Shown: piece after piece, positions 1,406 to 17,217 of the stretch
Numbering within the stretch: position 1 is the stretch's first letter
How the letters are laid out: every line of letters begins with the position of its first letter
IMG/VR virus record: IMGVR_UViG_3300036860_000056
Location: 1-20,451 of that record
Strand: one strand, 5' to 3'
DNA length: 20,451 nt
Source: a virus
Translations under genes and position numbers: made by a program
The notes under the pieces: model-generated
The model's database searches: none
Told to the model about the DNA's origin: nothing
Seen by the model: only the letters and a program-made list of their open reading frames with translations

Positions 1406-2215
1406 ATGCCGCCTCGCCGGGGATATCTCAAGCCACCAGCCCGGATCATCCGCCGCGGGTCACGGCTGCTCCGCCCGGCGCCCGCCGCCGCGCCGGTCAC
1501 GGTCACCAACGACTTCGAGGGCGGCACCAACGGCGTCGCCATCACCACCTCGAACGCCGGGGGTGTAGGGAACACCCAGTTCGACCAGGTCACCGTCAGC
1601 GCCGGCGATGGTGCGGTGAACTTCTCCAACGCCCACCCCGGCCATGGCACGCTGGGGATGCTGTGCCAGACCGGCGCGACCCTCGGCGAAGCCTACGTCA
1701 TGTGGTCCACGGCGCTCGGCGGCGCCACCGGGACCGTCTGGCTCCGCGCCTACCTGTATCTGACCGCCAACCCGGGCACGCAGACCCGCCTGTTCCGCTG
1801 GCTGAACGTGTCGAACGTCCGCGGGTCGGTGCAGATCAGCACGACGGGGAAGCTGCTCACCACCGACTCGGCTGGGTCGACGGTGGCGACCATGGGCAAC
1901 TCGGTCCCGCTCAATCAGCTGGTCCGGGTGGAGGCGTTCTGCACTGGCGATGCGGCTGCGGGGGTGTTGGAGTGCAAGCTGTTCGACTCACCCGAGTCGA
2001 CCACTCCACTTGAGACCCTGAGCAATAGCTTGCTGAACACGGGCGGGACGATCGACCGGGTCCGATTCGGACAGACCGGCACCGGCATCGCCAACGTCAC
2101 CTACTACCTGGATGATGTTGGCGCCTCCACCAGCGCCTACCTCGGCCCGGTCGGCGGAGCGCCAGCAGTCAGCATGACCCCACCGTTCGTCAGCCAGTAC
2201 AGCGGCCGCTGGTGA
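1406..2215 (+). CDS. LamG/concanavalin-like structural protein
   Basis: A 269-aa protein. Residues 1-28 are basic and proline-rich with two RRG motifs (MPPRRGYLKPP, IIRRGSRLL), then PAPAAAP leads into a jelly-roll-like domain of about 210 residues. That domain carries typical lectin-fold segments: NDFEGGTNG, LRAYLYLTANPG, LFRWLNVSN, GSVQISTTGKL, VRVEAFCTGDA and YYLDDVGAS. The C-terminus is the short peptide PPFVSQYSGRW, repeated almost exactly at the end of the next gene. The start is ATG after GGGGGG-TAGCTC; the bases GGTAGCTC also precede the start at 4135. The likely role is a glycan-binding protein on the head surface. That is inferred from the fold pattern and the position upstream of the adaptor. 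Confidence 0.7.
   Translation: MPPRRGYLKPPARIIRRGSRLLRPAPAAAPVTVTNDFEGGTNGVAITTSNAGGVGNTQFDQVTVSAGDGAVNFSNAHPGHGTLGMLCQTGATLGEAYVMWSTALGGATGTVWLRAYLYLTANPGTQTRLFRWLNVSNVRGSVQISTTGKLLTTDSAGSTVATMGNSVPLNQLVRVEAFCTGDAAAGVLECKLFDSPESTTPLETLSNSLLNTGGTIDRVRFGQTGTGIANVTYYLDDVGASTSAYLGPVGGAPAVSMTPPFVSQYSGRW
2180..2213 (+). repeat. Direct repeat copy 1 (pairs with 2365-2398)
   Basis: A 34-base stretch that recurs 185 bases downstream with three mismatches (at 2186, 2206 and 2209). It encodes the C-terminal PPFVSQYSGRW of the LamG-like protein and runs to its stop. An AAAGGA Shine-Dalgarno follows it, as one follows copy 2. Confidence 0.9.
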
Positions 2216-2939: not shown

Positions 2940-3650
2940 GTGCCATATGCTGAGGGCGACCGTAAGATCTGCTCCGCCTGTCGCAATGATCTGCCGCTGA
3001 ACGCGTTCAACAAGAACCGCGCGTTCAAGGATGGCCTTGCCAACCAATGCCGTGATTGCCTGAATGAGTCCCGTCGGAAGTGGCGGGAGGCTCACCCTGA
3101 TCGACACAAGGCTCGGCATGTCAAGAATCGCTACGGCATTGCCCTGGATGAGTACGAGGCGATGGCGCAGCGAGCGAACGGGAAGTGCCCGATCTGCAAA
3201 GAGCCGCCGCCGCCCCCGTTCAAGGCATTCGACCTTGATCACGATCACGAGACGGGCAAGGTCCGAGGGTTGCTGTGCCGGCCGTGCAATCTCGCCCTTG
3301 GCGGTGCACGTGATAATCCTACAATCCTGCGGGCTCTAGCCGACTACATTGAGTACCACCGGGCCAATCCCAGCGAAGATCGGCCGCCGCCCGTCCTGCC
3401 GACGTTCTACATCAAGGGCGAGGCGCACCATAAGGCAAAGTTGACCGAGGCGCAGGCCAGGGAAGTGAAGGCGCTGGTTCAGGCTGGCGTCTCGCAGACC
3501 GCCGTGGCAACGCGCTTCGGGGTCCGGCAGACAACGGTGAGCATGATTGTTCGTCGTCGTCTCTGGAAGCATTTGCCGGGGCCTACGGTTGAGGAGGCGG
3601 CTGAGGCGCGGCGGCGTTGGGATGAGCAGCACGCAAAGGAGGAATCTTGA
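2940..3650 (+). CDS. Endonuclease VII-like HNH endonuclease with C-terminal HTH
   Basis: A 236-aa protein starting at GTG after AGGAGGTGAT, an essentially full anti-16S match. N-terminal Cys pairs at residues 11/14 and 37/40 form a zinc-ribbon-like element. The core is of the recombination endonuclease VII type: zinc cysteines C83/C86 and C113/C116 flank the catalytic DHDH at 100-103, with the usual ETGKVRGLLC and CN-ALGG-DNP segments. Residues about 165-205 (LTEAQAREVKALVQAGVSQ then TAVATRFGVRQTT) form a helix-turn-helix of the kind found in free-standing homing endonucleases. Likely activity is site-specific or branched DNA cleavage; a mobile role is inferred from its insertion between structural genes. 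The following gene starts inside its stop (TTGA). Confidence 0.92.
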   Translation: MPYAEGDRKICSACRNDLPLNAFNKNRAFKDGLANQCRDCLNESRRKWREAHPDRHKARHVKNRYGIALDEYEAMAQRANGKCPICKEPPPPPFKAFDLDHDHETGKVRGLLCRPCNLALGGARDNPTILRALADYIEYHRANPSEDRPPPVLPTFYIKGEAHHKAKLTEAQAREVKALVQAGVSQTAVATRFGVRQTTVSMIVRRRLWKHLPGPTVEEAAEARRRWDEQHAKEES

Positions 3651-6899: not shown

Positions 6900-7388
6900 G
6901 TGCCGCCATCTGCCATTGCCTCATCCGTCCGATTTTTCCGGCCCGGAACCACGAAGGTGTATTGGGTCCGCGCGATCGTCCTCTACACCGCCCCCACTCG
7001 CCTGGAGATCAATAGTGGTACGGACCTTTCGGGCGAAATAGCGGAGATCAACGGCTTTTCCGTGGTGTCCGATACGATCCCTACTCCGGACTTGGGAACG
7101 CGCTTTGTGCCCAAGATCGCCGGAAGGATCAATGCGGACGACTCGTCCCTGAACTTCTACGCATCCTCGACGGGATTCACCGATGCTCGCTCGGTCCTCC
7201 CGAGGGATACGACCGGCTTTCTCGTTGTGATGGATGGGGGCGATGTGGCGACTACGGGGCGTATGGACGTGTTCCCGAGTACTGTCACGTCTGTCCCGAA
7301 GCTCCGCGCACTCGAGGACCCCGCCCAAGTGCAGATCACGTTCGCGATCACGAAAGTGCCTGCGGAGGATTTGGTCATACCTGTGTAA
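6900..7388 (+). CDS. Major tail tube protein
   Basis: A 162-aa protein starting at GTG with AAGGAGG 6-7 nt upstream, one of the strongest ribosome sites here, as expected for an abundant protein. It shows the actinophage tail tube pattern: SSVRFFRPGTTKVYWV, TRLEINSGTDLSGEIAEI, SSLNFYAS, TTGFLVVMDGGDV, GRMDVFPSTVTSV and a C-terminal VQITFAITKVPAEDLVIP. The protein polymerises into the hollow tail tube around the tape measure. Its codon use is a little less GC-extreme than its neighbours. An HNH gene with its own promoter separates it from the next structural gene. Confidence 0.88.
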   Translation: MPPSAIASSVRFFRPGTTKVYWVRAIVLYTAPTRLEINSGTDLSGEIAEINGFSVVSDTIPTPDLGTRFVPKIAGRINADDSSLNFYASSTGFTDARSVLPRDTTGFLVVMDGGDVATTGRMDVFPSTVTSVPKLRALEDPAQVQITFAITKVPAEDLVIPV

Positions 7389-7391
7389 TAG

Positions 7392-7431
7392 CACCAATTC
7401 TACCGGTCGCGGTTATCTGGTAGAATTGGTG
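7392..7431. repeat. Perfect 13-bp inverted repeat with 14-nt spacer
   Basis: CACCAATTCTACC at 7392-7404 and its exact reverse complement at 7419-7431, in the gap after the tail tube gene. Each arm holds TAGAAT reading outward on one strand. There is no T-run after it, so an intrinsic terminator is not well supported. It may be a promoter/operator pair or an insertion footprint. Confidence 0.85.
7421..7426 (+). promoter_or_regulatory. Candidate -10 box TAGAAT for HNH gene 2
   Basis: TAGAAT in the right arm of the inverted repeat, 13 nt before the first leader hairpin. The spacing is comparable to the TAAAAT before HNH gene 3 and the TACACT before the minus-strand 94-aa gene. No convincing -35 box. 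Confidence 0.5.
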
Positions 7432-7439
7432 TAAGAAGT

Positions 7440-7496
7440 GGCCCGGCAGCGTGTCAGCGCCCCGGGCCCGGCCGACACGAACGGAGCGTGCCGACA
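7440..7496 (+). promoter_or_regulatory. Two-hairpin RNA leader of HNH gene 2 (copy A)
   Basis: Hairpin 1 pairs GGCCCGG (7440-7446) with CCGGGCC (7462-7468), with an inner GCG/CGC stem and a 6-nt loop. The linker is CGGC. Hairpin 2 pairs CGACACG (7473-7479) with CGTGCCG (7487-7493), with one A-C mismatch; its loop holds the Shine-Dalgarno CGGAG. ACA then leads into the ATG. The architecture matches the leaders at 9313-9374 and 17151-17200. Confidence 0.72.
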
Positions 7497-8039
7497 ATGG
7501 CCAAGGGTCGCACATGTACCGTCGTCCTGCCGTCGGGGGACGTTTGTCCTCGGAAGCATAAGGCTTTCGGATGGTGCCAAGCGCACTATCAGCGATGGCA
7601 GGCCAAGGGCGATGTACTTGCCGAGATCTCTTTCCGCCGCTATCGCAAGGAAGGCTGCGCCATCCCGGGCTGCCCGCGGCGGCACTATGCCCGCGAGTGG
7701 TGCAGAGGCCACTGGGAGGCATGGCACCGTCATGGTGATCCCAATGTGAAACTCCGGGCACCCAAAGGGCAAGCGGATTTCCTGCACGAGGGCTATCACT
7801 ACATCCACATTGATGGCCGGATCGTGGCTGAGCATCGCTACGTGATGGAGCAGGTCCTCGGGCGGCCATTGCTTCCAGGTGAGACTCCACATCACAAGAA
7901 CGGCCAGCGCTCCGACAATCGGCCGGAGAACCTTGAGCTGTGGATCCGGAAGCAGCCGCAGGGACAGCGCGCCCGTGACTTGCTGGCCTGGGCTCGGGAG
8001 ATCATCGCCCGCTATGAGCCGATTGAGGACAAGCTCTAG
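7497..8039 (+). CDS. HNH homing-type endonuclease with two zinc-binding N-terminal motifs
   Basis: A 180-aa protein from ATG 7497. The upstream GTG 7488 lies 1 nt from GGAG and inside a leader stem, so it is disfavoured. Two related Cys/His modules precede the nuclease: C7-C17-C27-H30 and C54-C59-C69-H72, the latter two ligands spaced WC-x2-H in both. The HNH core is EHRYVMEQVLGRPL (E112-H113) followed by HHKNGQRSDNRPENLELW at 132-149, with the usual His, Asn and Asn. It is probably a free-standing mobile endonuclease that nicks or cuts DNA. It sits between the tail tube and a neck gene under its own promoter and structured leader, and ends 15 nt before the next start. Confidence 0.9.
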   Translation: MAKGRTCTVVLPSGDVCPRKHKAFGWCQAHYQRWQAKGDVLAEISFRRYRKEGCAIPGCPRRHYAREWCRGHWEAWHRHGDPNVKLRAPKGQADFLHEGYHYIHIDGRIVAEHRYVMEQVLGRPLLPGETPHHKNGQRSDNRPENLELWIRKQPQGQRARDLLAWAREIIARYEPIEDKL

Positions 8040-8054
8040 CAGGAGGAAAGTCTG

Positions 8055-9294: not shown

Positions 9295-9305
9295 GCTAAA
9301 ATAGC
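9295..9305. promoter_or_regulatory. Palindromic GCTAAAATAGC, candidate divergent -10
   Basis: The plus strand reads TAAAAT (9297-9302), 10 nt before the leader hairpin of HNH gene 3. The minus strand reads TATTTT (9298-9303), about 19 nt before the minus-strand CxxC gene. Both fit TANNNT, so one palindrome could serve two divergent transcripts. No -35 boxes are evident. Confidence 0.45.
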
Positions 9306-9312
9306 AATGAGC

Positions 9313-9374
9313 GGCCCCGCGAGGCGGTCACCTCCGGGGCCCGGCCAGCACTCACAGCGAAGGGAAGTGCTGAC
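9313..9374 (+). promoter_or_regulatory. Two-hairpin RNA leader of HNH gene 3 (copy B)
   Basis: Hairpin 1 pairs GGCCCCG (9313-9319) with CGGGGCC (9335-9341). A single bulged C (9320), a GAGG/CCTC inner stem and a 6-nt loop complete it. The linker is CGGC (9342-9345). Hairpin 2 pairs CAGCACT (9346-9352) with AGTGCTG (9366-9372), with the Shine-Dalgarno AAGGGA in the 13-nt loop. AC then precedes the ATG at 9375. Confidence 0.78.
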
Positions 9375-9869
9375 ATGAACAAGCCTACTTACTCGCTGTC
9401 CGACTTGTCGGGGCGGATTGCAACCAAGATCCAGATCAGCGATGAAGGCTGCTGGTTGTGGCAGGGTTACATCCGACCTAATGGCTACGGGCAAGCCCAT
9501 TGGGAGAGATGGCCACACCTTGTGCATCGGCTCGTCTATGCGCTGCTGGTCCGCCCTCTTTCCGACACGGAAGTCCTCGACCATCTCTGCGGGAAGAAGG
9601 CATGCGTCAACCCGGCTCACCTTGAACCGGTGACGCTGGCCGAGAACATCCGCCGGGCTGGTCGTGCGAACCGGAAAGAGACGTGCAGCAAGGGCCATCC
9701 CATCATCACTGCTGCTTCCGGTCGACGTCGATGCCGCGAATGCGCTCAGGGCCGGCAGCGGACATCCGAGTATCGCGCGAGCCAGCGTGAATATCAGCGC
9801 ATCTATCAGCGCCAATGGAAGAAGCTTCAGAAGCGTCGGCCCGGGATGGGTCAAGCTCCCTTGTTCTGA
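9375..9869 (+). CDS. HNH_3-type homing endonuclease
   Basis: A 164-aa protein starting at ATG, with AAGGGA in the leader hairpin loop upstream. The HNH_3-type core is GCWLWQGYIRPNGYGQ (residues 25-40), VHRLVYALL at 50-58, then LDHLCGKKACVNPAHLEPVT at 68-87, with H51-R52, D69-H70 and N79-x2-H82 as nuclease residues and C72/C77 as probable zinc ligands. A C-terminal zinc-like element (TCSKGH...CRECAQG) and a very basic tail follow. This is a typical free-standing phage HNH endonuclease. It separates the tail chaperone from the tape measure gene. The last 19 nt overlap the minus-strand membrane protein gene. Confidence 0.92.
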   Translation: MNKPTYSLSDLSGRIATKIQISDEGCWLWQGYIRPNGYGQAHWERWPHLVHRLVYALLVRPLSDTEVLDHLCGKKACVNPAHLEPVTLAENIRRAGRANRKETCSKGHPIITAASGRRRCRECAQGRQRTSEYRASQREYQRIYQRQWKKLQKRRPGMGQAPLF

Positions 9870-10099
9870 TCCCACCAGCTAGGCCGCAGCGTATCCCGCA
9901 GTGTCCCCGGGGTGATCTTCCCAGCCTGCCAAGCTTCGCGCTCTTCGTCACTCATCGGCTTGAGCAGGATCGCCATCGGCGTGGCGACGATCCACAGCAG
10001 CGCGCCGAAGGCCCACCACTGCCAGAAGTTGTGCCCCTTGTCATGGGCGATCTTGGCGGGGATCAGGCCAATCACAATGGCTAGTACGAGGATTTCCAT
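9851..10099 (-). CDS. Small two-helix membrane protein on the minus strand
   Basis: An 82-aa protein starting at ATG 10099 with AAGGGAG 5-6 nt upstream on the minus strand. TM1 is about residues 2-20 (EILVLAIVIGLIPAKIA) and TM2 about 25-46 (FWQWWAFGALLWIVATPMAIL). A cytoplasmic-type tail follows: MSDEEREAWQAGKITPGTLR, then PSWWDQ. The pattern of a G-x-IPA-IA--KG loop between two helices is familiar from bacterial short membrane proteins, but I cannot name a family. As a lone antisense gene inside the tail operon it may be a moron, for example acting in superinfection exclusion; that is speculation. It ends inside HNH gene 3. Confidence 0.8.
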   Translation of the reverse strand: MEILVLAIVIGLIPAKIAHDKGHNFWQWWAFGALLWIVATPMAILLKPMSDEEREAWQAGKITPGTLRDTLRPSWWDQNKGA

Positions 10100-10150
10100 C
10101 TTGTCTCCCTTCGCTGCGCTGAGTATGCGCGTTGCGAGGTGTGTCCGCTA

Positions 10151-10164
10151 GGGCCATTCGGCCC
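10151..10164 (-). promoter_or_regulatory. Short hairpin upstream of the minus-strand membrane gene
   Basis: GGGCC and GGCCC separated by 4 nt, between the divergent membrane-protein and tape measure starts. No T-run follows on either strand. It is simpler than the two-hairpin leaders and may be unrelated. Confidence 0.3.
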
Positions 10165-10185
10165 ATTGACACGGGACTGTGACCT

Positions 10186-12951
10186 GTGGACCGAGCCGTA
10201 CGCTTCGACCTGATCCTCAACTCCCGTAAGTACGTCAGCGGCGGCAAGGATGCGGTCAGGACCAATCAGCAGATCACTGAGAGCACCAAGCGGGCTGGCA
10301 ATGCATTTAAGGCTGTCACCGCCGCGTTCTCTGTTGGCGTGGTCGTCACCCAGATGCGGAACTGGGTCGCGGCCGCCAGGGATTCCAACCGAGTCGCCGC
10401 GCAGACCGCCGCAGTCATCAAGAGCACCCACGGCGCCGCCGGCCTCTCCGCCAAGGGCTTCTCCGATCTGGCGAAGTCGATCGAGAAGACCACCGCCGTC
10501 GACGATGATCTGATCCAGGGCGGCGAGGCGATCATCGCGACCTTCACCAACATTCATGGCGACGTGTTCAAGAAGACCACCCAGGCCGCGGTGGATCTGG
10601 CGGCTGGGATGAACCATGGCGCGGTGACTGCCGAGGGGTTGCAGACCGCCAGCATCCAGCTGGGAAAGGCATTGCAGGATCCGATCAAGGGTGTCACGGC
10701 GCTCCAGCGGATCGGTATCAAGCTGAGCGATCAGCAGAAGGCTCAGATCGCCACGTTCGTGAAGAACGGCCAGGTCGCCAAGGCCCAAGGCGTGATCCTG
10801 GCAGAGGTGAACCGCCAGTTCGCCGGCAGTGCCGCCGCGGCGGTGACCCCGGCGAAGCGCCTCGCGCAGCAGTGGGGCGACATGCAGGAAGTTTTGGGGA
10901 ATCTACTCATTCCCGCCATTGACCGTGGCGCGCAGATCTTGTCCAGCATCCTTGGGGTGGTCGATCGGAACCGGACCGCGTTCGGTGTGCTGTTCGGGGT
11001 GCTCGGTACCGGCGCGGCGATCATTGGGACGCTGGTGGTGGCGGAGAAGATCCACAAGGCGACCACCGAGGGCATCCAAGCTGTTACTAAGGCGTGGGAG
11101 GGAGCCCAGAAGGGCCTGAACCTCGTTCTCGGACTCACGAGAGCACAGGCGCTCACAACCGCCGCCGCTGAGGATGCGCTGGCTGCATCTACAACAGCAG
11201 CGGGGACTGCGGCGGCTGGGGCCTCGGCAAGTGTGGGTGCAGGCGGCTTGGCTGGTGGACTTAGGACCGTGGCGGGCGCGGCGGCCGGTCCTCTTACTGC
11301 TCTTGCCGGGTTGGCTGCCGGTTTCGGGCTGGCGAGACAGTCGATCAAAGACAACGTCTCAATGTGGGACGAGTTTCGACACAACGTCCTTCACCAGTCG
11401 GTTCCCGCCATTGACCAGGCCCGGGAGGCGGCCAACAAGCATGCGGGCGCGACCAAGGGCGATACGCTCGCTACCGCTTACAACGCGACTCAGCAGCAGG
11501 CATTGCGTCTCCAGATGGCGCAGCTCGTTCCTGGAATCGACGCGGCGGCTGATGCTACGAACAAGGCCGCTGCCGCGCAGGCCGAAGCGGGCAAGAAGAT
11601 CACGGACCTGAAAAGCAGGATCCAGGGGCTGAAAGACGAGTACAAGCAGGCGTTCGACTCGATCGTGCAATCCATCGAGAACTATCAAGGGTCGCTGACC
11701 GACTCCAAGAACACATCGTTCGTGACGACCAAGTCGATCCTGCAGGATCTGCACAACCAGGTCGGCAATTTCAAGACGTATTCCCGCGATATCCACACGC
11801 TTATCAAGGCTGGGTTTAGTACCGAGGCGATCAAGGAGCTGCAGGACAAGGGCCCGCAGTACGTCCATGGGATGGCGGTTGGTTCGAAAGCGCAGCTTGC
11901 CGACTACAAGAAGACTTGGTTGGCCCGCAATAAGGAGATCAAGGGCAACTTCGCCACGGCGATGGATGAGCAGTTCGCGAAGCTCAAGAAGCAGATCCGC
12001 AATATGCAGCGGGAGATCGACACCCTGCGCGGGAAGAACATCTCCGTCTCTGCCTCGTTGAAGCTGAGCTTCTCCAAGAGCTTCACGCAGAAGGATTGGG
12101 CGCAGGTCAAGGTCCTCACCCGCGGCGCCAGGGGCATGCTCATCACCCAGGGCACCGGACCGACCGCCGATGATGTGCCGGCGTTGGTGTCCAAGGGCGA
12201 GACGATCGTTTCGGCGAGGGACTCGGCAGACCCCGCTTTCCGGACGTGGGCGAAGGCGCGGCGGATCAAGGGGTACGCCGCCGGTGGTGCGATCGGCACG
12301 ATCGGCCGTGAGGCCGGCGATATCAACCGGCTGCAAGGTAAGGGCACCGGTATCTGGATGGACCGTGGCATCACCCAGATCATGAAGGCGTTCACCACGG
12401 CCCCAGGGATCGGGGCTTCCGCCAGCGTCACCAGTGTCGCCAACTGGACCGCGAGGATCCTCGGCCGGATCGCGGAAGCGGGCGCGTGGGCGCGGCGGAT
12501 CATGTTCGAGTCGGGTGGGAACTGGACCGCCGTGAACCGTACCGACTCGAACTGGTTTGCCGGTCATCCGTCGGTCGGTGGCGCGCAGGTAATCCGGGGA
12601 ACCTTCAACGCCTACGCTGGCCGGTTCCGGGGCACGGGCCCGTATCTGTATGGCGTGTCGGTGAACCCGTGGGCCAACAGCTATGCGGGCGCCAACTACG
12701 CGGTGCACCGGTATGGCAGCATGGCCGCCGTGGATCCGAGGGTCCGTCCGATCGGCTACGCCCGCGGCGGTTTGGTCATGGATCATGGCGGCTTCCTTAC
12801 GCCCGGTTGGAACCCGCCGATCTACAACGGCACCGGCCGCCCCGAGCCGGTCGGCCAGGCGCAGCAGCACGTGACGATCATCCAGGTGGACCGGCGCGTG
12901 CTCGCCCGGATCGTCAACGACGGTGGCCTGCTCAACGCAAGGCTGACCTGA
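10186..12951 (+). CDS. Tape measure protein with transglycosylase-like C-terminal domain
   Basis: A 921-aa protein starting at GTG with only a weak Shine-Dalgarno. The N-terminal 260 residues follow the common siphophage tape measure pattern (ALQDPIKGVTALQRIGIKLSD, described near residues 165-185; RLAQQWGDMQEVLGNLLIP). Hydrophobic segments lie near 263-290 and 358-385. A coiled region near 600-625 leads to a TMP-type G-GT-DDVPALVSKGETIVSA motif at about 650-676. Residues about 755-870 look like a lytic transglycosylase (SLT) domain: FESGGNWTAVN with candidate catalytic Glu775, GGAQVIRGTFNAYA, then NPWANSYAGANYAVHRYGS. The protein sets tail length, and the C-terminal domain could open peptidoglycan at injection. 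At roughly 1.5 angstrom per residue the tail would be near 140 nm. Confidence 0.93.
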   Translation: MDRAVRFDLILNSRKYVSGGKDAVRTNQQITESTKRAGNAFKAVTAAFSVGVVVTQMRNWVAAARDSNRVAAQTAAVIKSTHGAAGLSAKGFSDLAKSIEKTTAVDDDLIQGGEAIIATFTNIHGDVFKKTTQAAVDLAAGMNHGAVTAEGLQTASIQLGKALQDPIKGVTALQRIGIKLSDQQKAQIATFVKNGQVAKAQGVILAEVNRQFAGSAAAAVTPAKRLAQQWGDMQEVLGNLLIPAIDRGAQILSSILGVVDRNRTAFGVLFGVLGTGAAIIGTLVVAEKIHKATTEGIQAVTKAWEGAQKGLNLVLGLTRAQALTTAAAEDALAASTTAAGTAAAGASASVGAGGLAGGLRTVAGAAAGPLTALAGLAAGFGLARQSIKDNVSMWDEFRHNVLHQSVPAIDQAREAANKHAGATKGDTLATAYNATQQQALRLQMAQLVPGIDAAADATNKAAAAQAEAGKKITDLKSRIQGLKDEYKQAFDSIVQSIENYQGSLTDSKNTSFVTTKSILQDLHNQVGNFKTYSRDIHTLIKAGFSTEAIKELQDKGPQYVHGMAVGSKAQLADYKKTWLARNKEIKGNFATAMDEQFAKLKKQIRNMQREIDTLRGKNISVSASLKLSFSKSFTQKDWAQVKVLTRGARGMLITQGTGPTADDVPALVSKGETIVSARDSADPAFRTWAKARRIKGYAAGGAIGTIGREAGDINRLQGKGTGIWMDRGITQIMKAFTTAPGIGASASVTSVANWTARILGRIAEAGAWARRIMFESGGNWTAVNRTDSNWFAGHPSVGGAQVIRGTFNAYAGRFRGTGPYLYGVSVNPWANSYAGANYAVHRYGSMAAVDPRVRPIGYARGGLVMDHGGFLTPGWNPPIYNGTGRPEPVGQAQQHVTIIQVDRRVLARIVNDGGLLNARLT

Positions 12952-16865: not shown

Positions 16866-17150
16866 TCAAGGTCCTCGATAATCCTCAAGGATTGGTAGAG
16901 CAACAATCACCCCACCACCGTCGACCACCTTGGCCGCCCGCCGAGCGCTCTCAAGATCATTAAAACTCCAAACGGTTGCGGCACCAGGATTCAGGAAAAC
17001 GAGATAGACCTGCTTCGGCGCGACGTTCGCCTTCAACGCGGCCCGACGTGCCCGACGTGCCCGACGGGCAGCCGTATCGGCCTGGTATTGCCGCCAGACA
17101 CGGACGCGAGGGTCGATGACACGTCGGCGCAGCCAAGTACGCTTGTCCAT
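16866..17150 (-). CDS. 94-aa orphan protein on the minus strand with structured leader
   Basis: A 94-aa protein. ATG 17150 is chosen because GGAGG lies 7-8 nt upstream in the loop of a leader hairpin; the longer in-frame extension upstream would read through that structure. Residues 1-40 are strongly basic (MDKRTWLRRRVIDPRVRVWR, then an RRARRARR run coded by a 9-nt tandem repeat). Residues 45-94 form a small hydrophobic alpha/beta unit: KQVYLVFLNPGAATVWSFND, then SARRAAKVVDGGGVIVALPI. It may bind nucleic acid through the basic part; that is inference. It occupies the gap between two tail-tip genes, ending 10 bp after the glycosidase gene. It has its own likely promoter (TACACT at 17217-17212). 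No family recognised. Confidence 0.75.
   Translation of the reverse strand: MDKRTWLRRRVIDPRVRVWRQYQADTAARRARRARRAALKANVAPKQVYLVFLNPGAATVWSFNDLESARRAAKVVDGGGVIVALPILEDYRGP
17042..17068. repeat. Three 9-nt tandem units
   Basis: CCCGACGTG twice, then CCCGACGGG. On the minus strand they code the repeated Ala-Arg-Arg stretch of the 94-aa orphan protein. The length suggests slippage expansion in the basic region. Confidence 0.85.
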
Positions 17151-17200
17151 GTCGGCACCTCCATGCCGTCCGGGCCCCGGCTGTACCCCAGCGCGGGGCC
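17151..17200 (-). promoter_or_regulatory. Two-hairpin RNA leader of the minus-strand 94-aa gene (copy C)
   Basis: Read on the minus strand, hairpin 1 pairs GGCCCCG with CGGGGCC (17200-17194 and 17179-17173). It has a single bulged C, a GCTG/CAGC inner stem and a 5-nt loop. The linker is CGGA. Hairpin 2 pairs CGGCA with TGCCG around the 6-nt loop TGGAGG, the Shine-Dalgarno. AC then precedes the ATG. The layout is the same as before HNH genes 2 and 3. Confidence 0.75.
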
Positions 17201-17211
17201 GTTCCCTACGG

Positions 17212-17217
17212 AGTGTA
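17212..17217 (-). promoter_or_regulatory. Candidate -10 box TACACT for the minus-strand 94-aa gene
   Basis: TACACT on the minus strand, 11 nt before leader hairpin 1, close to the 10-13 nt seen at the two HNH leaders. It overlaps the ribosome site and start of the plus-strand hub gene. No strong -35 box. Confidence 0.45.

Follow-up and report, generated by a model that had tools for sequence, protein, structure and literature searches.

Why do three genes of one virus share the same leader, and which strand of that leader carries its structure? The DNA analyzed here, a 20.4-kb IMG/VR virus fragment (referred to in its entirety as the window), contains head-tail, tail, and tape-measure genes, and a megablast search of the window against cultured phages revealed no relative. 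A first-pass annotation had proposed that two HNH genes and a 94-aa orphan gene are preceded by one and the same architecture, a promoter followed by two hairpins in the mRNA leader.

Anatomy of a repeated two-hairpin element

All three leaders are present and share this architecture. Copies of the element lie at 7421–7499 (plus strand) and 9297–9377 (plus strand), in front of HNH genes 2 and 3, and at 17217–17148 (minus strand), in front of the orphan gene. The pattern GGCCCSGN{6,25}SGGGCCCGG matched the record exactly three times, at these copies, and had no match in the record read backwards as a control. A generic script that looked for stem 1, a short linker, a hairpin with the Shine-Dalgarno in its loop, and a start codon likewise found all three, along with weaker chance matches. 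Both hairpins of the HNH3 and orphan leaders were formed by RNAfold. Stem 2 of the HNH2 leader has one A·C mismatch in the sense strand, where RNAfold favors a different pairing. The features of the three loci, including those on the opposite strand, are as follows.

9297–9302, plus strand: sense −10 TAAAAT with a TG extension (TGCTAAAAT), promoter of HNH gene 3, from sequence
9313–9341, minus strand: hairpin 1 (antisense hairpin B), with a 7-bp stem, one bulged base, a 4-bp stem, a 6-nt loop, and a terminator-like end, from folding and covariation
9346–9372, minus strand: hairpin 2 (antisense hairpin A), a stem around the Shine-Dalgarno, whose complement forms the antisense loop, from folding
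9313–9376, minus strand: predicted structured antisense RNA of HNH gene 3, about 64 nt plus a short tail, 5′ end near 9376
9382–9387, minus strand: antisense −10 motif TAGGCT within codons 3–5 of HNH gene 3, from sequence and the fixed-site motif
9375–9869, plus strand: HNH gene 3, 164 aa, HNH_3 (Pfam) and phrog_826 (PHROG)
7421–7426, plus strand: sense −10 TAGAAT (TGGTAGAAT) of HNH gene 2, from sequence
7440–7498, minus strand: predicted structured antisense RNA of HNH gene 2, a 9-bp hairpin with a CUCC loop and then hairpin 1, from folding
7504–7509, minus strand: antisense −10 position of HNH gene 2, GACCCT, weak, with base 1 off TANNNT, from sequence
7497–8039, plus strand: HNH gene 2, 180 aa, HNH_3 (Pfam) and phrog_20891 (PHROG)
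17212–17217, minus strand: sense −10 TACACT of the 94-aa orphan, from sequence
17149–17200, plus strand: predicted antisense RNA of the 94-aa orphan, from folding and the covariance model
17138–17143, plus strand: antisense −10 motif TACGCT within codons 3–5 of the 94-aa orphan, from sequence
16866–17150, minus strand: 94-aa orphan gene, without Pfam or PHROG match

The sense −10, often TG-N-TAAAAT, lies about 17–20 nt 5′ of hairpin 1, and the CTGACCTGSTAAAAT-like block of the HNH3 promoter recurs among many relatives. Read in the sense direction, hairpin 1 begins with about 7 bp of stem and a bulged C that never varies, continues with a stem of 4–5 bp, and closes with a mostly 6-nt loop that has an AA, AG, or CA end. 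It is followed by the linker (N)YGR, a 5–7 bp stem around the Shine-Dalgarno, 2–3 nt, and ATG or GTG. The Shine-Dalgarno sits in the hairpin-2 loop, outside the stem, and the conserved linker G forms a further pair with the C before the ATG that is standard in 99% of cases (columns 47–92); on the opposite strand, the linker and the AC preceding the ATG thereby extend the antisense hairpin.

Some loci deviate from this layout or resemble it in part. Two copies from a Myxococcales MAG (L175 and L176, the latter heading an integrase) consist of hairpin 1, a GUGGCC linker, and the Shine-Dalgarno, without hairpin 2. In Arthrobacter phage Richie (NC_070831.1, 52425–52482) the annotated start of the HNH gene gp96 (52435) falls within the element, which implies that this gene would instead start at a GTG about 45 bases further downstream. 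Within the window, HNH gene 1 (EndoVII, 2940–3650) has no copy; a small hairpin, CUAGGA-GGUGAU-UCCUGG (2920–2945), overlaps its Shine-Dalgarno and is followed by a GTG start. Upstream of an 82-aa gene on the minus strand (10099–9851, phrog_8436), a GGGCC-GAAU-GGCCC hairpin and a CGCATACT box are found (10099–10200); this locus is a non-member, and the CGCATACT box also occurs upstream of some member copies (L126, L143, and L252).

Covariation and distribution of the family

The covarying two-hairpin structure is real. In 21 copies selected by pattern, 10 of the 17 pairs show two-sided changes, amounting to 43 cells compared to 12.0 ± 2.7 in shuffled alignments and 1–8 in slid controls, and 94.0% of the cells pair in the sense direction. 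Among 96 distinct copies we counted 327 two-sided cells, as opposed to 101 ± 7 after shuffling and 9–46 in slid controls; in hairpin 1, 10 of the 11 pairs change on both sides. The compensatory stem changes noticed in the three leaders are thus borne out in both sets. A mutual-information scan over all column pairs ranked six predicted pairs as the top six (1.11–1.58 bits; best other pair 0.61), in an alignment that had been fitted to the model, so that the MAFFT alignment of the 21 pattern-selected copies is the cleaner test. In the same scan, no pair with a clear Watson-Crick excess indicated long-range or pseudoknot pairing or linked the coding motif described below with the leader.

The first-pass annotation knew of no named RNA family matching the leaders, and Rfam (release 15), searched on both strands, contains no match at the element, either in the window (E ≤ 1) or in 16 further loci (E ≤ 5). 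We found no description of the element in the open-licence literature and nothing relevant in the int-alpA literature.

The element, described from three copies, proved to be repeated on a far larger scale. A pattern scan of viral contigs with stem 1 fixed and the inner stem and hairpin 2 left free gave 81 loci, about 20 of them with the complete architecture. Most matches of the first pattern scan and many of the second were due to chance, and the alphaproteobacterial, Caulobacter, and Actinomadura matches (L149, L154, and L152) were dropped because of an unconvincing second hairpin. Building and searching covariance models, as the first-pass annotation had proposed, yielded many homologues with strong covariation. 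Model R1, built from 21 copies, recovered additional copies from these viral records despite stems of quite dissimilar sequence, with as many as five in one phage, and clearly separated copies (at least 34.8 bits) from noise (at most 22.5 bits). In total, covariance models added more than 120 copies, which come from IMG/VR phages, from cultured phages of Arthrobacter and Streptomyces, and from Actinomycetota genomes. Copies in cultured phages include those of the Arthrobacter phages Richie (gp47 and the HNH gene gp96), Zucker (gp35), and Pitbull (the HNH gene gp27, gp31, and gp65), and of Streptomyces phage Ponzi (gp5). Blastn with single leaders against cultured phages and plasmids returned little or nothing for most queries; one search reached Arthrobacter phages and another the Ponzi site.

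At E ≤ 0.001, model R2 matched 40 of 397 sampled Actinomycetota genomes (about 10%), 6 of 201 Micromonosporaceae, 2 of 113 Myxococcota, and none of 249 Pseudomonadota genomes. Apart from a few copies in Myxococcota, the element is thus confined to Actinomycetota and their phages. Such restriction to a clade argues against random GC-rich hairpins as the explanation. A start codon could be assigned to 112 copies, and in 104 of these its position matches the model end exactly.

Strand bias and promoter motifs

A structured RNA tolerates G·U but not A·C, and the complementary strand shows the reverse. On the mRNA strand, A·C cells outnumber G·U cells by 89 to 9 in the 96 copies and by 19 to 1 in the 21 pattern-selected copies. 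The same holds for 66 chromosomal copies outside the model training, with 63 A·C versus 6 G·U cells in the sense strand; A·C prevails in 40 of these copies and G·U in 3 (p = 3e-9, an optimistic value since the copies are partly related). The non-Watson-Crick cells, A·C on the mRNA strand, are therefore G·U wobbles on the opposite strand, and the 21 pattern-selected sequences, when read as antisense, pair in 99.2% of cells versus 94.0% in sense.

Folding points in the same direction. Of 104 copies, 101 give the better fold as antisense (−36.0 kcal/mol and z −3.93, against −30.5 kcal/mol and z −2.27 in sense), as do 18 of the 20 copies found later. For HNH gene 3, the minus strand (9303–9376) reaches −40.1 kcal/mol (z −3.64) and the sense strand −34.8; for HNH gene 2 the corresponding values are −34.1 (z −2.61) and −29.3, with a covariance-model score of 62.7 bits. 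The orphan leader (−30.3 antisense vs. −33.2 sense; 55.5 bits) is the sole window copy that folds better in sense. Sense and antisense models trained on a common set of 21 copies barely differ in bit score, so we base the strand claim on pairing and folding and not on covariance-model scores. R1 and R2, like the searches, were set up in the sense direction, and their bias opposes the antisense result.

Both directions are associated with promoter-like motifs. TANNNT is an actinobacterial −10. Upstream of hairpin 1, it was found in 55 of 104 copies, compared to 3–4 in control stretches. Inside the genes, the bases A at +8, T at +12, and A at +13 are conserved among those that bear the element. 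Of 44 mutually unrelated proteins, 24 have TA at +12/+13 of their reading frame, compared to a frequency of 1.5% at the codon boundaries in the same genes; this TA accompanies threonine at position 5 in 51 of 106. When read on the opposite strand, these bases form a TANNNT −10. Of 106 copies, 70 have this motif at the fixed site and 82 within two bases of it, with 0.1 expected, and 18 of the 20 copies found later have it at the fixed site; the control, 1091 other Shine-Dalgarno-preceded gene starts, has it in 15 (1.4%). The −10 motifs of both directions are detectable in 45 of 104 copies. The first-pass annotation had let the element end at the ATG: its position is indeed fixed at the Shine-Dalgarno and start codon, but the conserved part runs on to codon 5. 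Antisense −35 sequences are not enriched (6.7% vs. 7.1% in the control); actinobacterial −35s are often weak. From the position of the −10, the antisense RNA would begin at about the complement of the AUG, and the predicted 5′ end of the HNH3 antisense RNA was placed in the same way. The tail following hairpin B is rich in U and C, but its U-tract is poor, without a strong U-run, and a simple consensus terminator scan after hairpin B called nothing.

These data bear on the view that the element is a sense riboregulator, in which the leader itself folds, with hairpin 1 serving to guard the 5′ end or to bind a protein and hairpin 2 limiting translation because its loop holds the Shine-Dalgarno, in the manner of phage mobE or I-TevI. 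The fixed place 2–3 nt 5′ of the start codon with the Shine-Dalgarno in loop 2, the enrichment of a sense −10 just upstream that puts hairpin 1 at the mRNA 5′ end, and the better sense fold of the orphan copy are all in line with this. We nevertheless regard it as unlikely, since sense stems tolerate A·C ten times more often than G·U, the sense fold is the worse one in nearly all copies, and the A+8/T+12/A+13 signature in the coding region is left unexplained. The A·C/G·U asymmetry, the strand-specific folding, and the antisense −10 in the coding region speak against a sense mRNA leader as the selected structure, so that the strand assignment of the first-pass annotation was probably wrong. 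The better-conserved structure on the strand opposite the gene points to an undescribed antisense RNA family. Several observations run against the antisense reading: the lack of −35 enrichment, the poor U-tract, the sense fold of the orphan copy, the imperfect antisense −10 of HNH gene 2, the two Myxococcales MAG copies without hairpin A, and the near-equal covariance-model scores of the two strands.

The strand evidence would also fit a trans-acting small RNA whose targets are other genes, such as related genes of competing phages or host mRNAs. Differing copies, several of them in a single phage, and a widely common hairpin B core would suit such a role. However, the exact Shine-Dalgarno/AUG register, found at over 100 genes that are in many cases unrelated, is what control in cis requires, and a conserved single-stranded seed was not found, which makes action in trans very improbable in our view.

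Mobility, related systems, and proposed function

The 102 downstream proteins fall into 54 BLASTP groups, with about 35 proteins in one linked HNH/endonuclease group. The other genes encode GIY-YIG and EndoVII nucleases, tyrosine recombinases (integrases), excisionase-like HTH proteins, a serine resolvase, Cas1-domain proteins, membrane proteins, and orphans. Two chromosomal copies (L232, 144–1727, minus strand; L235, 283–1680, minus strand) lie directly before Cas1-domain proteins (Pfam E 5e-28 and 6e-46), one of which has an N-terminal zinc-finger-like region. The statement that the three coding regions of the window are not homologous holds for the orphan, which is unrelated to either HNH gene, but HNH2 and HNH3 both belong to Pfam HNH_3 and are distant domain relatives. 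The cultured phages Zitch, Magritte, Neville, GiJojo, and BRock encode close relatives of the HNH2 protein and have no copy at that gene; the element thus does not track the HNH2 family. Together with the many unrelated downstream proteins, this agrees with the proposal that the leader is kept independently of the gene.

A comparison with the relative L248 delimits a mobile unit:

7385–8049, plus strand: inserted unit comprising the sense promoter, the element, and HNH gene 2, from the gap in L248

In L248, the window flanks 7384 and 8050 are adjacent (2997/2996), 665 bp are missing, and at this empty site the stop of the tail-protein gene overlaps the next start (TCTGATG). Judged from these junctions, the element and gene were inserted as one unit. 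In nine other relatives examined, the element starts shortly past the same tail-protein stop and is followed by different genes. Conversely, L248 carries the element and a broken HNH gene at a junction that is empty in the window (1833–1950); its frame stops after 19 codons, and we take it for a decaying homing-endonuclease insertion. The copies L251 (1861–1925) and L257 (1626–1682) have the promoter and hairpin 1 in common and differ from hairpin 2 onward and in the gene. Exchange inside the element is therefore possible, and the two copies suggest recombination there.

Could the element act as DNA, as a bottom-strand single-stranded hairpin like integron attC or IS200/IS605 ends, or as a recombination joint that swaps cassettes? 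The joint gain and loss of element and gene, the different genes behind the element at one junction, and the divergence of L251 and L257 from hairpin 2 onward would be expected, and tolerance of G·T in DNA could also produce the strand asymmetry. The fixed Shine-Dalgarno/start-codon register and the two promoter motifs do not fit, and the copies have no recombinase in common; judged from the 5′ side and the gain and loss of units, we consider this the most improbable of the readings discussed here.

Several known systems resemble the element in part. CopA of R1 and RNAI are two-stem antisense RNAs that control plasmid copy number. Like these RNAs, the predicted antisense RNA is a cis-encoded, opposite-strand transcript in the range of 60–100 nt with stem-loops, and a loop presents the complement of the target; those RNAs, however, regulate replication, and the element showed no Rfam similarity. 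In IS10/Tn10, the opposite strand encodes RNA-OUT, a structured antisense RNA of 69 nt that covers the translation initiation region and keeps ribosomes from binding the transposase mRNA (PMC5006887). Here as well, complementarity to the translation initiation region of a mobile-element gene and a conserved structure on the antisense strand were found. RNA-OUT, however, belongs to one Gram-negative insertion element, whereas the putative actinobacterial RNA is associated with many unrelated genes and has its −10 in codons 3–5; the sequences were compared through Rfam alone, with no match.

In mycobacteriophages of Cluster K and Microbacterium phages of Cluster EF, gene starts are preceded by SAS and ESAS repeats. 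The 13 bp of SAS are fixed in sequence, and according to the authors departures among ESAS repeats give little support for RNA pairing (PMC3203893, PMC7302621, PMC11373665). The element likewise is a Shine-Dalgarno-centered repeat before unrelated phage gene starts, with an inverted repeat and a SigA-like promoter upstream. We rejected membership in this group: hairpin-2 sequences vary and covary, and the 13-bp GGGATAGGAGCCC-like sequence 3–7 bp 5′ of the start codon is absent from the window copies. The 17-bp imperfect inverted repeat of ESAS overlaps the promoter, whereas the strongly covarying hairpin 1 lies downstream of the −10.

Translation of the homing endonucleases mobE (phage Aeh1), I-TevI, and segB is held down by hairpins at the ribosome-binding site (PMC3014915). 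The element shares with them RNA structure at the ribosome-binding site of phage homing endonuclease genes. Those hairpins are particular to their gene and located on the sense strand, whereas the structure described here is mainly antisense and forms one family at many gene types. A hairpin of the mobE or I-TevI type, with the Shine-Dalgarno or AUG paired in the sense strand, was rejected, as the Shine-Dalgarno lies in the loop and the sense stems are weaker. We judge the element to be a new RNA family, cis-antisense control as such being already known.

Starting from what can be read from the sequences themselves (conserved structure, strand bias, both −10 motifs, fixed geometry, independence from the coding sequence, and joint insertion of element and gene), we consider it likely that the element is a convergent promoter pair with a structured antisense RNA that limits translation of the mobile gene; transcription of this RNA, its start and end, and translational repression are what we infer. 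Repression is proposed because the layout, two convergent promoters and an RNA over the Shine-Dalgarno and AUG, is like that of IS10 RNA-OUT. The sense promoter would drive the gene, and the opposite-strand promoter in codons 3–5 would start an antisense RNA of 60–75 nt. This RNA would fold into two hairpins: hairpin A, up to 8–10 bp long, would display the Shine-Dalgarno complement (CUCC) in its loop, and hairpin B, with its bulged base and 6-nt loop, followed by the pyrimidine-rich tail, would probably end transcription. Since its sequence complements the entire 5′ UTR along with the Shine-Dalgarno and AUG, the RNA would most likely pair with the mRNA, perhaps loop to loop, and block ribosome entry. 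Homing endonuclease, integrase, excisionase, and other mobile-element genes would be kept low despite readthrough from the host operon. Repression of readthrough mRNA could have an effect similar to the insulation from the late operon that had been suggested for the leaders.

We lean, with some reserve, toward a broader interpretation, in which this undescribed antisense RNA family serves actinobacterial phages and integrative elements as an exchangeable control part for selfish genes, with a promoter placed within the first five codons of unrelated proteins. Several differing copies in one phage may then be mutually exclusive silencers that place homing endonucleases and integrases under copy-number or superinfection control. 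Were this true, a single RNA part would govern homing endonucleases, integrases, excisionases, and many orphans across the mobile DNA of a phylum, the quietness of selfish nucleases inside phage late operons would be explained, and unrelated proteins would have their N-termini (M-x-[EKDN]-x-T) constrained by a regulatory promoter. The element also provides a sequence signature by which mobile "moron" genes can be found and their starts set correctly.
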